64,000 nt of DNA from positions 1 through 64,000 of the forward strand of contig JAIOAT010000004.1 in assembly GCA_019873685.1 (NCBI GenBank), written 5' to 3'. The translations under genes were made by a program, and so were the position numbers. The first letter of the stretch is position 1; each line of letters starts with the position of its first letter. Below, piece after piece: positions 35,180 to 43,220 of this stretch. This DNA is from Chloroflexota bacterium. GTDB taxonomy: Bacteria; Chloroflexota; Anaerolineae; Aggregatilineales; Ch27. Below the pieces are notes generated by a model. The model saw only the letters and a list, made by a program, of their open reading frames with translations, was not told where the DNA came from and did no database searches.

Positions 35180-37405
35180 CTATTGCGTTCTGGGCCGGGC
35201 GAGGATGCTGGCAATCGGCCTCATGCTCAGCCACCACTGCTCCTTGGGCCGGCCAAATTCGCTATCAAGCAGGCGCGGCAAATCGCCCAGGCTGGTGAAG
35301 GTCACCTGTCCGGCCTGCAGACCGATGAACGCCCCGGCTGGCGAAACCCGCCCCGCCTCAGCAATCAGGAACTCCATGCAACGAGCGGCCAGGCGTGTTG
35401 CCTGAATCCGGTCGAAGGGCGAAGGATCGCCGCCCTGCTGCACATGCCCCAGGATGGTCTGCCGCACGTTGAACAGCCCGCCGCCTTCTTTCTCAAACAG
35501 CGAAGCGATGAACGATGTCGTATAGAACGGATCGACATCTTCGTTGCGGATGATCAGGCCCAGCCGCATATCTTGCTCAAATCCCTTGACCAGACTGGCC
35601 AGGTCGTCCTGCAAATCCTTGAGCGTTAGCCCTTCCTCATGCAGGTAGATTCGCTCCGCGCCTGTCGCCAGGCCGCTCATCAGTGCCAGATAGCCGCAAT
35701 AGCGCCCCATGACCTCGACCACAAAGCAGCGCCGGGAAGCCACCGCGGACTGCTTGATCTTGTCCACGTCCATCACAATGCTGTTGAGGGCAGTATCCGC
35801 GCCGATGCTGTGCTCGGAGCCGGGCAGATTGTTGTTGATCGACGCCGGCATGCAGATGATCGGGATGTTGAAGGCCGGATACTGGTTGCTGTGGGTGAAC
35901 AGCAGATGAGCCGCCTGATAGCCGGAGAGACCGCCGATGATCAGCAGGCCCTGAACGCCATGCGCTTCCAGAACCTGGGCGATCTTGGGCAGGTCGCTTT
36001 CCGCAGGGATTTTGCGGCTGGTGCCCAGCTCAGCCCCACCGCGGGAAACCCAGCCGCTGACGCTCATCCAGTCCATCTCGCTGATGTCGTCGCGCAGCAG
36101 GCCGCGGAAGCCATTACGCGCGCCCAGCATGATATGGCCTTTGTCCAGCCCCAGCCGGACGGCAGCGCGGACAGCCGTATTCATCCCCGGGGCGGGACCG
36201 CCGCAATTCATGACCAGGAAGCGCAGCCGTTTCTGGCCTGGTTCCGGCTTGCGTGGATACGCTTGCACCAGCGTGCGGAAGGTGCGCAGTGCATCCTTGA
36301 AGCTTCCGCCGCGCAGGGACATCGCCCGGTTGTAGTCGTGCGCTTCGATGGCCCGCGCAACTTCCTGAGTCGCCTCGACGCAGGCCATCAGCGGCGCATG
36401 AACCAGCCGGTTCTCGCGGATGCCGATGAGCAGGGGTTCCCGCGCCTCTTCGGAGACGATGCATTCCACTGCTGCGTAGCCCATCAGCGTGCCCAGGTTG
36501 CGGTCAAAGGCGCTCGGCGCGCCGCCGCGCTGGACATGCCCCAGGATGGTGACGCGCACTTCCTCCCCCAGCCGTTCTTCCAGCGCCTTCTGGACGTACT
36601 GGCTGGTGATGGGATTGCCAAAGCGGTCCTGAGCGCCCTCCGCCACGATGACGATGCTGTGGCGGCGGCCGGTTTCACGCCCGGCCCGCAGCGCCCGGCA
36701 CATTTCGTCTTCCCAGTCATCCACCTCTGGCGGGCTTTCCGGGATCAGCACCCAGTTGGCGGCGGTTGCCAGGGCGCTCATCAGTGCCAGATAACCGCAG
36801 TGCCGCCCCATGACCTCGATCACGAACACGCGCTGGTGGCTGGCCGCGGTGCTGGCGATAGCATCGACCGCTGCCGTGATCCGGTGCAGCGCGGTATCCG
36901 CGCCGATGGTCATATCCGTGCCGACCATATCGTTGTCGATCGATCCCACCAGGCCCACCAGCCGCAACTCGCGATGCGCATCGGCTTTCTTGCGGCTCAG
37001 CTCACCCCGTTGCACCAGCTCCTCAAGCAGCTCCGGCCACTCCTGCCGGAAGATGTTCGCGCCCGTCAGGCTGCCATCGCCGCCGATCACAATCAGGCTG
37101 TCGATGCCGTGCTCCAGCAGGTTGCGGGCTGCCTGCCGCCGCCCGTCGCGGGTGCGAAACGCAGCGCAGCGCGCCGTGCCGATTACCGTGCCGCCCTGGT
37201 GCATGATGCCGCCCACGGACCCCCAGGTCATCCGGCGGATGAAATTGCCGCCATCCACCATGCCCTGGTACCCTTCGTAGATCGCATAGACATCATGCCC
37301 CAGGTTGATCGCTGTGCGGACGATCGCCCGCACCGCCGCATTCATCCCGGGGGCGTCACCACCGCTGGTGAGTACCCCGATGCTTCTCCTGGAATGCCCT
37401 GACAT
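35180..37405 (-). CDS. Double-length 6-phosphofructokinase, C-terminal half degenerate
   Basis: The 741-residue protein is two PFK domains in tandem, about 1-390 and 400-741. The N-half keeps the catalytic set: TSGGDAPGMN, IGGDGS (108-112, Gly form typical of ATP use), GSIDND with catalytic Asp157, GTDMTIGADTAL, and MGRHCGYLAL. The C-half reads CGGPAPGMN, GGLSG (491-495) and SINNN (Asn524 where the catalytic Asp belongs), but keeps GADTAL and MGRYCGYLAL. This split, an active N-half with an altered C-half, mirrors eukaryotic PFK-1, where the second half is regulatory. It likely phosphorylates fructose-6-phosphate with ATP. A TTGACG-17-TAAAAC promoter lies about 95 bases upstream. Confidence 0.92.
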   Translation of the reverse strand: MSGHSRRSIGVLTSGGDAPGMNAAVRAIVRTAINLGHDVYAIYEGYQGMVDGGNFIRRMTWGSVGGIMHQGGTVIGTARCAAFRTRDGRRQAARNLLEHGIDSLIVIGGDGSLTGANIFRQEWPELLEELVQRGELSRKKADAHRELRLVGLVGSIDNDMVGTDMTIGADTALHRITAAVDAIASTAASHQRVFVIEVMGRHCGYLALMSALATAANWVLIPESPPEVDDWEDEMCRALRAGRETGRRHSIVIVAEGAQDRFGNPITSQYVQKALEERLGEEVRVTILGHVQRGGAPSAFDRNLGTLMGYAAVECIVSEEAREPLLIGIRENRLVHAPLMACVEATQEVARAIEAHDYNRAMSLRGGSFKDALRTFRTLVQAYPRKPEPGQKRLRFLVMNCGGPAPGMNTAVRAAVRLGLDKGHIMLGARNGFRGLLRDDISEMDWMSVSGWVSRGGAELGTSRKIPAESDLPKIAQVLEAHGVQGLLIIGGLSGYQAAHLLFTHSNQYPAFNIPIICMPASINNNLPGSEHSIGADTALNSIVMDVDKIKQSAVASRRCFVVEVMGRYCGYLALMSGLATGAERIYLHEEGLTLKDLQDDLASLVKGFEQDMRLGLIIRNEDVDPFYTTSFIASLFEKEGGGLFNVRQTILGHVQQGGDPSPFDRIQATRLAARCMEFLIAEAGRVSPAGAFIGLQAGQVTFTSLGDLPRLLDSEFGRPKEQWWLSMRPIASILARPRTQ

Positions 37406-39284: not shown

Positions 39285-40997
39285 TTACGGCGTGATCTCC
39301 ACCACGACGCCCTCCTGCGCCCAGTTATAGAGCAGTTCCGCGTTGCGGGTGCTGATCAGGATGCAGCCGTAAGTCACGCGATGCCCCAGGCTGTTCGTCC
39401 ACAGGAGCTGGCTGCCGCCGCGCGTGGGGAAGCCGTGAAAGCCGTTGGTGAAGTCCGCCCCGGGGATGGGCCGGTAGACCCCCAGAAAATACGGCATGTA
39501 CAGATTCCAGTTCGCCGCATAGGCATTGGGGACGTGGGAGATGATCTGGTAGATGCCCGGCCAGGTGGGACTGTCGGCGATGCCAGTGCTGGCAGGCCAG
39601 TCCCACAGCAACGCGCCGCCCTCGTAGACGCGCACGCGCTGCTGGCTGATGCTGACTTCGATGCGCTTGTCAGGCACCACGGGGAATTCCAGGAAGGTGT
39701 CCGGTGAGGGGATGGTGATCGTCTGCCCGGCGGAGACCTCGGTCAGGCCGCCATTGGCCTGCTGAATCCAGGGGTAAGGCACGCCATAATCCCAGGCAAT
39801 GCTGATCAGCGTCTCGCCGGGCTGGACAGTATGTTGCCGGTCGTGGTGATACACGCGGGCATCCGCGGCAGGCTGCCCGTTCGCCAGTCCTGCCTGTACT
39901 GCCGCCACGACCTCCTCAACCTGGAGATAACGCGACGAGTCCAGAGCAGCGGCGGCCTGCGCTCGCAGGTAATCCGCCAGCGCCCCTTCATGCAGGCTGA
40001 GCGCCAGGCCAGTTGGTTGGCCCGGATCAGGCACGGCTGCCAGCCATGCCCCCCACTGTTCAGGCGGCAGCGTCCAGTGGACGATGTCGCCGGTCACCGG
40101 ATCATAGAGCCGGATGTCCAGCGGCTGGCTCAGCAGGCGCTGGGCCGCTGCGACCAGGGGGGCAGCGTCAACCACTTCGGGTGCGACCGGCTGCATGGCC
40201 AGCGCCAGCGTACCATCAGCCAGCGCGCTATCAGCCGTCAGGCGCTGCAATGTCGCCTCAACGTCCAGAGCGCGGCCCTCCTGTGCCGGAGTCGGTTCCA
40301 CGCGGCCAGCCACCAGGCGCACGCCGGCGTTGACCGGGGCCTGGGCTACCTGCGGCGCCAGCGAGGCCAGGCCAGCGCGGGCAACCGCCTCATCCACGAT
40401 CAGCACAGGAGCAACATTTGCCGGACGAAGCAAGCCGTCCAGCCGTCCGCCACGTCCACGCCCATGCGCCAGAGCGCGGGCCGCCGTCGCCTCCGCGTCG
40501 AGCGTCACGCCCAGCGTCGCAGCATCAACCGACCAGGCGCGCTCACCATCGCGTAGCAGCACTGTTCCCCAGGCGCTGCTGAGCGTCCGGGCGGCTTCCG
40601 CCTGTGTCAGGCCGCCTACCGGGATGCCCGCCGCGGTTACCTGCGGGAAGACCCGTCCTGAGTAGGCCAGGGTCAGCCCCAGCCCCAGCAGCAGCACAGA
40701 CATGATCACCAGGGCCGGGATCGCCACCAGGGGCGCAGCAACGCCCCACAGCAGCCAGCGGCGCGAGCGGCGGGCACGGGGTGGGCTGCGCCGGGCGAGG
40801 GCAGGGCTGTGGGCATAACCGGCAGGTGATCGGCCACGTGTATCTGCATGCCGGGGAGAGGGTTGCCGCCCGTAGGGCAGCGGGCGCGGCTGGATGATGC
40901 TGGCAGGCGGCGGAGTCCGCCGGCGTTGGGGATGTGGCGGCGGCACCCGGACGGGGCCAGAGGACTGCGGGGCATGAGAGCGACGCTGGCGGATCAT
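39285..40997 (-). CDS. Membrane-anchored L,D-transpeptidase with LysM domain
   Basis: The 570-residue protein has a basic, proline-rich cytoplasmic tail (1-85), one TM (about 88-112), and peptidoglycan-binding repeats of PG_binding_4 type beginning VTAAGIPVGGLTQAEAARTL. A LysM module (HTVQPGETLISIAWDYGVP ... SAGQTITIPS) follows, then a C-terminal YkuD domain with FHGFPTRGG and VTYGCILIS, catalytic Cys545. The usual S-H-G-C motif is T-Y-G-C here. It should make 3-3 peptidoglycan cross-links or attach proteins outside the membrane. An AAGGAG site precedes ATG 40997. A TATAAT at 41030-41035 (minus) is the probable -10. Confidence 0.9.
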   Translation of the reverse strand: MIRQRRSHAPQSSGPVRVPPPHPQRRRTPPPASIIQPRPLPYGRQPSPRHADTRGRSPAGYAHSPALARRSPPRARRSRRWLLWGVAAPLVAIPALVIMSVLLLGLGLTLAYSGRVFPQVTAAGIPVGGLTQAEAARTLSSAWGTVLLRDGERAWSVDAATLGVTLDAEATAARALAHGRGRGGRLDGLLRPANVAPVLIVDEAVARAGLASLAPQVAQAPVNAGVRLVAGRVEPTPAQEGRALDVEATLQRLTADSALADGTLALAMQPVAPEVVDAAPLVAAAQRLLSQPLDIRLYDPVTGDIVHWTLPPEQWGAWLAAVPDPGQPTGLALSLHEGALADYLRAQAAAALDSSRYLQVEEVVAAVQAGLANGQPAADARVYHHDRQHTVQPGETLISIAWDYGVPYPWIQQANGGLTEVSAGQTITIPSPDTFLEFPVVPDKRIEVSISQQRVRVYEGGALLWDWPASTGIADSPTWPGIYQIISHVPNAYAANWNLYMPYFLGVYRPIPGADFTNGFHGFPTRGGSQLLWTNSLGHRVTYGCILISTRNAELLYNWAQEGVVVEITP

Positions 40998-41140
40998 AGA
41001 CAGGTGCACTCCTTGGCGGTTTTGTCCTCATTATAGCAGAGGCCTGTTTGCACCCGTCCCACCGCCAGCCCGGCGGCTGCCCTGCGTTTGACCTGTGCAG
41101 CGGTTCACTCAGCCACGAGGCATTTGTCGGTCAACCTCAT

Positions 41141-42061
41141 TTAGAGCCTGCTCAGCACCACGGTCACCAGCCAGCCGATCATCAGCCACAGCCCAAAGCG
41201 CCCGTGCAGACGGGCGGTTCGTCCCTGACCCTGGTGCAATAGCGCTGTGTCGGTACTGGTCGTGAAGATGCGGATCAGGCGGTAGGCTTCCGGCGCGGTC
41301 ACCAGCACAATCAGGGTCGGCCAGGGCATCACCCCGGCGATGACCATCACCGCCACCATCACATACGACCCGGCGACCAGCAGAATGTACTCGGCCCGCG
41401 CCACGCGTAGCCCGAAGATCACTGCCAGCGTGCGCTTGTTAACGGCGCGGTCAGCATCCATATCGCGGATGTTGTTGGCGTGCAGGATCGCCGCCACCAT
41501 GAATCCGATCGGCAACCCGGCCAGCAACGGGGTCAGGCTGGTCTGGCCGCCAGACATGGCGTAATACGCGCCAAGCACCATCAGCGGCCCCATGAAGACA
41601 AACACCGCTGCTTCTCCCAGGCCGTGATACGCCAGCGGGAATGGCCCGGCGGTATAGGTGATCACCACCAGCACGCCCCCTAAGCCAATCCACAGCAACA
41701 ACGGGCCGCTCTGAAACAGCAGCACAAGGCCAATGATCACCCCGGCAGCCGTCGTTAGGATGGCTCCACATAATACTTCACGCGGGGTCAGCACCCGCTG
41801 CTTGATCACCATGCCCTGGCCGGCCTGCTTGAGCGCATCCGCCCCGTGCCGGTAGTCGGCATATTCGTTGATCAGGTTCGCCGCGATCTGCAGGAAAAGC
41901 GCCCCGATCAGCGCCAGCGCAAAGCGCCCGGCATCAAAAACGCGATCATCCAGGGCGATGGCTGCCGCCAGTCCCAGTGGGGCATAGGTGGCGGTCAGTG
42001 TGCGCGGGCGGCTGGCGCGGTACCACGCGGCCAGATAAGGATGTGTTACCAGAGTTCCCAT
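41141..42061 (-). CDS. menA: UbiA-family prenyltransferase, probably 1,4-dihydroxy-2-naphthoate polyprenyltransferase
   Basis: The 306-residue integral membrane enzyme shows the two Asp-rich prenyl-diphosphate sites, NLINEYADYRHGAD and NNIRDMDADRAVNKRTLAVIFG, in the spacing and wording typical of MenA, which makes demethylmenaquinone. About eight hydrophobic helices are visible. An upstream frame extension is spurious; GAGGG seven bases before ATG 42061 sets the start. It follows the CinA-like fusion gene by 10 bases, so they are cotranscribed. No other men gene is nearby. Confidence 0.9.
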   Translation of the reverse strand: MGTLVTHPYLAAWYRASRPRTLTATYAPLGLAAAIALDDRVFDAGRFALALIGALFLQIAANLINEYADYRHGADALKQAGQGMVIKQRVLTPREVLCGAILTTAAGVIIGLVLLFQSGPLLLWIGLGGVLVVITYTAGPFPLAYHGLGEAAVFVFMGPLMVLGAYYAMSGGQTSLTPLLAGLPIGFMVAAILHANNIRDMDADRAVNKRTLAVIFGLRVARAEYILLVAGSYVMVAVMVIAGVMPWPTLIVLVTAPEAYRLIRIFTTSTDTALLHQGQGRTARLHGRFGLWLMIGWLVTVVLSRL

Positions 42062-42071
42062 CACTTTTCCC

Positions 42072-43220
42072 TCATAGCCCGCCGCTGGCCTGCTCACGCA
42101 GCGCGGTCGACGAAATGTCCACGCGGAAAACCTCCGCCGGAATCGCCGAGAACATCCCGGCGAATTCTTCAGGCACCGGCACATCGTCCAGCGTATGCAG
42201 CCGTCCCTCAAAGAGACGCCCGGCAACCAGGAAGCGGCATCCCCTGGCGCGGATCGATTCCAGCGCGGCCAGCATCGCGCCTGTGTCGCCGCCGTAATAG
42301 CGCGGGCTGACCAGGCGGGTGGCTGTATCATAGCCAACCACGAACACGCTGCCGGGGAAGAGCCGCGCCTTCTGTTCAAACAGGGGTGTGGTTGTTAAGG
42401 CTATGGCGCCGTGACCGTAGAACTGCTCCAGCCGCTGGCGAACGTCCGCTTCCAGCAGCGGCGGTTTGTCCACATTCAGCACCGAAAGCTCAAAGATCAC
42501 CCGCCGCCCGGTCATCTGCCCGGCTACATGCGCCAGCTGCGTATGGCCGCCATGAAGCGGGTTGAATGCGCCTGGCAGCACGGCCACGTCACGCGGCAAC
42601 TCAGTGCTGACCTGGCCGGTCAGTTCGATCAGGATGGCGGGCACTTCTCCCCGCAACACCTTGAGCACCGGGTCCGGCGCGTCTTCATAGCTGACTTCAA
42701 CATGCTCAGAGGGTAGCAGGGGAAGCGTCACCGCCTGAGCGCATCCACAGGCTTCGGCCAGCGCACGGATCACCAGCCGGCTGACGACATCTTCCTCCTC
42801 GGCGCGGTCGCGGCTGCCTTTTTCCAGCACCAGCGTATAGGTGGTGATCCGGCGCTCGTCGCGCACCGCAACATGGCAGCGATTCTCGCCGCGCCGGGGC
42901 CGGTCGGTGACCAGCGCCGCCGTGCAGGCCAGCCCGATCGCCGGCGTGCCTTCCGGGGCCAGGATCCGCGCTCGTCGGTAGGCGACAGCAGCCATCTGTA
43001 TTGCCGTCTCCCGCGCCACAAAGTGCGCCGGGCGCATCCCCAGGAATCGCTCAAACGACGGGTGGCTGTAGGGCAGTGTGACCTCCAGCACGGTGCGGGT
43101 GGCTCCCGGCACGCTCATCAGCCAGGCCAGTGCCTGGCTGCCGCCGCCGCTCGCCACCAGAACCGCCTGCACGGGCGAATCGTGGATGTAGTGGATGATA
43201 TCGCTGATCTGTTGATCCAT
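42072..43220 (-). CDS. CinA-C-like domain fused to NadD-like nucleotidyltransferase
   Basis: The 382-residue protein joins two modules. Residues 1-170 resemble the CinA C-terminal (nicotinamide-nucleotide amidase) fold: VLVASGGGSQALAWLMSVPG, TVLEVTLPYSHPSFERFLG, GLACTAALVTDRPRRGENR. Residues 185-382 are a nucleotidyltransferase with LPGAFNPLHGGHTQLA (His223-Gly-Gly-His226), FVVGYDTATRL and a C-terminal ISSTALRE, as in NadD/NMNAT or cytidylyltransferases. Together they suggest pyridine-nucleotide salvage or damage control, but activity is not proven. From memory, plants and fungi carry a similar uncharacterised architecture. The start is ATG 43220; a longer frame lies upstream of the promoter. 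menA follows by 10 bases. Confidence 0.8.
   Translation of the reverse strand: MDQQISDIIHYIHDSPVQAVLVASGGGSQALAWLMSVPGATRTVLEVTLPYSHPSFERFLGMRPAHFVARETAIQMAAVAYRRARILAPEGTPAIGLACTAALVTDRPRRGENRCHVAVRDERRITTYTLVLEKGSRDRAEEEDVVSRLVIRALAEACGCAQAVTLPLLPSEHVEVSYEDAPDPVLKVLRGEVPAILIELTGQVSTELPRDVAVLPGAFNPLHGGHTQLAHVAGQMTGRRVIFELSVLNVDKPPLLEADVRQRLEQFYGHGAIALTTTPLFEQKARLFPGSVFVVGYDTATRLVSPRYYGGDTGAMLAALESIRARGCRFLVAGRLFEGRLHTLDDVPVPEEFAGMFSAIPAEVFRVDISSTALREQASGGL

Follow-up and report, generated by a model that had tools for sequence, protein, structure and literature searches.

A CinA-like domain joined to an HxGH adenylyltransferase in Chloroflexota and large phages: a predicted NMN adenylyltransferase

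The protein studied here, which joins a CinA-like domain to an HxGH adenylyltransferase domain and has relatives in Chloroflexota and in large phages, is probably an NMN adenylyltransferase whose CinA-derived domain binds NMN and has probably ceased to be catalytic. In the mechanism that we propose, the HxGH/ISSTxxR site of the C-terminal domain would catalyze the reaction of NMN with ATP, giving NAD and pyrophosphate. The N-terminal domain, which appears to descend from the NMN deamidase CinA/PncC and to have kept the phosphate- and ring-binding pocket while losing the Ser/Lys dyad, would most likely bind NMN and leave its amide group in place, serving to hold the substrate or to sense it, perhaps as a dimer like CinA. 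In Chloroflexota the protein would take over the recycling of NMN, for example of that released by NAD-dependent DNA ligase, and this direct route would replace the deamidating one (PncC, NadD and NadE); in phages the same module would act after NAMPT to take nicotinamide to NAD. We infer direct synthesis of NAD from NMN because carriers lack canonical CinA, because in some cases each domain has a gene of its own, and because the phage genes adjoin NAMPT genes. An earlier note on this DNA had suggested that the protein serves NAD salvage starting from NMN, and the exclusion of CinA and the linkage to NAMPT support this as a prediction.

Architecture of the gene product

The gene lies in the window, the whole 64,000-nucleotide stretch of a Chloroflexota contig that was analyzed, and its open reading frame starts with ATG (Table 1). 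The protein aligns over its full length with relatives at 94 to 45% identity, with a shared start at MDQ/MDS residues; a homologue in an Aggregatilineales MAG (record L011) is 69% identical. The earlier note had described a single chain with a CinA-like N-terminal and a NadD/NMNAT-like C-terminal region, and this layout was confirmed by profile-profile comparison, Pfam matches of the relatives, AlphaFold models and Foldseek. The HGGH and ISST motifs that it had read in the C-terminal region are both present.

Table 1. Features of the gene and of its downstream neighbor (positions in the window)
Feature	Position	Strand	Remarks
Whole gene, CinA-like domain and HxGH adenylyltransferase domain	42072..43220	-	382 aa plus stop
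N-terminal CinA-like domain, about residues 1-180	42681..43220	-	profiles, Pfam in relatives, models and Foldseek
Linker between both domains, about residues 181-204	42609..42680	-	
C-terminal NadD/NMNAT-like adenylyltransferase domain, about residues 205-382	42075..42608	-	Pfam, NCBIfam, Foldseek
GAFNPLHGGH motif (HxGH), residues 217-226	42543..42572	-	
DISSTALR motif (ISST), residues 368-375	42096..42119	-	
S24, aligned with CinA nucleophile AtCinA S31, unconserved	43149..43151	-	ungapped alignment
F56, aligned with CinA general base (AtCinA K63, TtCinA K301)	43053..43055	-	ungapped alignment
Y51, aligned with CinA phosphate-binding Tyr AtCinA Y58	43068..43070	-	alignment
T100 (T/S in nearly all), probable AtCinA T105 equivalent	42921..42923	-	alignment uncertain there
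R139, invariant, probable equivalent of CinA phosphate-binding Arg AtCinA R145	42804..42806	-	alignment uncertain there
menA-like prenyltransferase, 10 bases downstream	41141..42061	-	

The CinA label needed proof because a Pfam search of the 382-aa protein gave no match to PF02464 (CinA) above the cut-off. PF02464 was matched by 18 of 38 homologous N-domains, at best with 1.5e-6. When the N-domain profile was compared by hhalign with 18 Chloroflexota CinA proteins, the two aligned with 93% probability (E 2.4e-7) and ungapped across the first active-site blocks, and the profile also matches T. thermophilus CinA 4ct8 (E 0.002), ungapped from VPGAS to YS. Two AlphaFold models were used (pLDDT 84 and 90); the 20 best-ranked Foldseek matches were CinA structures, with E values as low as 4e-6 and a TM of 0.69 to the A. 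tumefaciens CinA structure 2a9s. These data bear out the proposed CinA-like N-terminal half and show that it shares the fold of CinA/PncC (PF02464; PDB 2a9s, 4ct8). As a check on its reading the earlier note had named a structure prediction, and Foldseek matches the model of pLDDT 90 to both CinA and NadD/CoaD structures. CinA-like proteins are also predicted in giant viruses (BFVD A0A3G4ZJY5 and A0A481YR20; Terrestrivirus, Marseillevirus LCMAC101).

The sole Pfam match of the 382-aa protein is PF01467 (CTP_transf_like), at 21.8 bits with a cut-off of 21, and all nine A1 members match it as well. Models of the NadD type match all 38 relatives at scores far under their cut-offs; TIGR00482 (nicotinate/nicotinamide nucleotide adenylyltransferase) is the top NCBIfam match across members, at 14-17 bits, below the curated cut-off of 112.45 bits. 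Foldseek matches of the C-domain include NadD with NaAD (5deo, TM 0.57) and CoaD. The GxFxPxHxGH and ISSTxxR motifs are both present, and the aligned bacterial sequences conserve H223, H226, K252, D298, S370, S371 and R375. PF01467, the motifs and the Foldseek matches to 5deo and CoaD support the assignment of the C-domain to the NadD/NMNAT type, with which it shares the fold, HxGH and ISSTxxR. It differs from that family (PF01467, TIGR00482; PDB 5deo) in a score far under the NadD curated cut-off (17.1 bits), in FELSxxNVDKP and RYY motifs of the fusion family's own, and in that the fusion protein occurs in addition to NadD. Enzymes of PF01467 use several acceptors, and whether NMN, NaMN or another mononucleotide is taken cannot be read from the C-domain sequence. 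Annotation pipelines label such proteins as cytidylyltransferase-like only, or not at all.

A possible relative of the C-domain, as we presume, is yeast Pof1. This NMNAT, an HxxH/SxxxxR adenylyltransferase, was reported to form NAD from NMN (PMC13191266), as we predict for the C-domain. The earlier note had suggested that plants and fungi may have proteins of like layout, which would make this a cross-kingdom enzyme. Literature searches for a CinA-NMNAT fusion and for the plant gene At2g01220 returned nothing, and a paper on a cyanobacterial NMNAT-C was set aside as a precedent since the layout differs, with an H16/H19 motif near the N-terminus. Distant C-domain-like proteins of 236-588 aa without a CinA-like part occur in records L089-L098, and the host genomes mostly keep canonical CinA; proteins of this type form a separate group of their own in the C-domain tree and were rejected as carriers of the family.

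Catalytic and binding positions of the CinA-like domain

In AtCinA the S31A and K63A variants were folded and had no detectable activity, and the substrate is bound by S48, Y58, T105 and R145 (PMC5384747); the TtCinA equivalents are given in PMC4246079. Among the 38 bacterial homologs, residue 24, aligned with the nucleophile, is Ala in 17, Thr in 14 and Ser in 7. Residue 56, aligned with the general base, is Leu, Phe, Met, Val or Ile; Lys is found there in none of the 38 and in no phage row. The earlier note had proposed that the N-domain deamidates NMN, a claim that finds no support here: it had named a lack of the CinA-C catalytic residues as refuting its reading, and at the positions of S24 and F56 the bacterial homologs and the phages lack the Ser/Lys pair. 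The positions that bind the phosphate of NMN (AtCinA G46, S48, Y58 and R145) are kept as G39, T/S41, Y51 and R139, the match of R139 being probable, and Y51 is kept in all aligned N-domains, bacterial and phage.

The simplest reading of these alignments is that the pocket would still bind NMN without deamidating it by the known mechanism. The N-domain resembles CinA/PncC in its substrate-binding positions (G, S/T, Y, T and R) and in its likely ligand, NMN, and differs from it in lacking the Ser/Lys dyad and in its partner, which is an adenylyltransferase (as a fusion or a paired gene) in place of COG1058. The COG1058-CinA (MocF-PncC) fusion likewise joins a CinA domain to a second NAD-recycling enzyme; however, its partner is an ADP-ribose pyrophosphatase and its CinA domain is often active (PMC3680494, PMC4246079).

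Occurrence in Chloroflexota and in large phages

We searched 400 Chloroflexota genomes, defining carriers by E<1e-20, and found the fusion family in 60 genomes from eight taxonomic families. Strong canonical CinA was present in none of these 60 and in 322 of the 340 genomes without the fusion family (Fisher p 1.4e-55, a naive value that overstates independence, the genomes being related and phylogenetically clustered). Six carriers show weak PF02464 matches only (E 2e-6 to 3e-4), which are taken to be the fusion family's own N-domains. The exclusion holds within family f3, of the same order, where two genomes (G013 and G024) have the fusion without CinA and three (G006, G019 and G029) the reverse. 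Such a distribution, opposite to that of CinA/PncC, is what a replacement would produce. In one genome (G009) the remaining COG1058-CinA protein (L131:1538-2824, minus strand) has a decayed deamidase motif, EAGTGQ as against ESCTGG in active enzymes; a sequence homologous to the C-domain is present in that genome as well. The N- and C-domains are separate genes in two families, adjacent in f56 and unlinked, at distant sites, in f32, which supports a functional link between the two halves that does not depend on a channel.

NAD-dependent DNA ligase is a source of NMN. The genome that contains the window encodes this ligase (LigA) and a canonical NadD; no CinA, NadR or NAPRTase/NAMPT-family gene was found in it. 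NAMPT was considered as the source of NMN in Chloroflexota and rejected, since PF18127 (NAMPT_N) occurs in only one of the 400 genomes (G102), which also has the fusion family. A search for plasmid-borne relatives found none.

Outside bacteria, tblastn identified a full fusion in a 485-kb phage (28.5% identity, 94% coverage, E 8e-30), and 27 loci were recovered from IMG/VR in a scan guided by profiles. Together with GenBank phages these loci represent about 22 distinct phage lineages, some with genomes above 400 kb. Full fusions make up most of the phage forms; in several cases adjacent genes encode the N- and C-domains, and at three loci the C-domain stands alone. In the C-domain tree, whose deep support is weak, most phage sequences fall outside the bacterial group. 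In 10 of the 22 lineages a NAMPT gene lies on the same strand no more than 2 kb away, the spacing running from an overlap of 1 base to a gap of 1890 bases, and in the other 12 none is near the gene; a PF04095 gene is present somewhere in 16 of 25 phage records. By a rough estimate, one NAMPT gene placed at random in a phage genome of 170-450 kb would be expected within 2 kb in a few percent of cases. The neighbors belong to PF04095, mostly with NAMPT_N, and could include Namat-type enzymes. Because NAMPT makes NMN, its partner should adenylate NMN, which a deamidase would divert.

This arrangement resembles the nicotinamide salvage of phages by NadV with NadM or NadR, in which a NAMPT gene likewise adjoins an NMN adenylyltransferase in large phages; the only NMN adenylyltransferases that a published survey of NAD systems in viruses lists for phages are NadM and NadR (PMC9503650). 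It differs in consisting of a CinA-like fusion or gene pair: the second domain of the phage proteins is CinA-like, neither the Nudix domain of NadM nor the kinase of NadR, and Nudix appears only as a neighboring gene in two lineages (L109:7031-8143 and L118:7011-7895), between or beside the fusion or pair and NAMPT. In PHROGs, six of seven proteins had no significant match and one had a marginal match of unknown function, and the BFVD match A0A6J5RR79 is labeled cytidyltransferase-like only. In one viral contig a Ku70/Ku80 gene (PF02735; L106:8064-8894, plus strand) lies 0.9 kb downstream of the fusion.

Alternative readings and bacterial gene neighborhood

A two-step salvage enzyme, in which a rearranged active site in the N-domain deamidated NMN and the C-domain adenylated the resulting NaMN to NaAD, would explain the CinA fold with its conserved binding residues, and exclusion of canonical CinA is expected if a functional deamidase has replaced it. 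We nevertheless judge this unlikely: both dyad positions are lost and their residues vary, Ala occupying the nucleophile position in nearly half of the bacterial homologs; beyond the binding set, few polar N-domain residues are universally conserved across bacteria and phages; the phage pairs with NAMPT need no deamidase; and NadD is already in the genome. That canonical NadD also speaks against direct adenylylation of NMN, as do the phage lineages without a nearby NAMPT gene and the phylogenetic clustering of the exclusion. Another conceivable arrangement is that the C-domain adenylates NMN while the N-domain catalyzes some other pyridine-nucleotide reaction, such as hydrolysis or repair of an abnormal form of NMN or NAD. 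The N-domain could perform chemistry with a new set of catalytic residues; bacteria and phages alike have retained it, with G25, G39, Y51 and R139 invariant, and in f32 its stand-alone gene is kept far from that of the C-domain. However, no universal acid/base or nucleophile set was seen beyond the binding positions, and we consider a second reaction improbable.

Weak profile similarity to CoaD and RibF, together with a menA gene that adjoins in the protein's own family and a ubiD gene in one other lineage, could mean that the protein is a nucleotidyltransferase from a different cofactor pathway, one related to CoaD, FAD or quinones, in which the CinA-like domain serves as a scaffold. This seems very unlikely to us, given that TIGR00482, though far under its cut-off, is the top NCBIfam match across members, that the linkage to NAMPT in phages and the exclusion of CinA each indicate NMN, and that the menA adjacency is local. 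If the protein is, as we favor, an NMN adenylyltransferase with an NMN-binding partner domain, it would account for the recycling of NMN in Chloroflexota without CinA, would represent a type of NMN adenylyltransferase overlooked by phage NAD surveys, and would be a natural case in which a catalytic domain became the ligand-binding partner of an enzyme that uses the same substrate. More tentatively, and with some doubt on our part, the family could constitute a third class of NMN adenylyltransferases, as yet undescribed, with a deamidase-derived partner that binds or senses NMN; it would stand in for the NMN deamidase route throughout entire bacterial lineages, and in large phages, which carry it with NAMPT, it might plausibly rebuild NAD after NAD-depleting defences.

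The earlier note had also coupled the gene to menA. The 10-base gap is correct, and the adjacency is kept only in the same taxonomic family (five searched genomes); no neighbor is conserved across bacterial lineages, the menA adjacency being confined to family f1. In family f94, ubiD (L078:7183-8637, plus strand) lies 5 bases downstream of the fusion, a quinone-pathway neighbor like menA and possibly a coincidence. Farther along the minus strand of the window, two more open reading frames were characterized by their sequence only: one of 574 aa (39285-41009) combines a LysM-like stretch with a C-terminal L,D-transpeptidase-like stretch, and one of 741 aa (35180-37405) reads as a pair of phosphofructokinase-like halves placed head to tail, with the motifs GGDAPGMN and GGPAPGMN, an arrangement like that of eukaryotic PFK.
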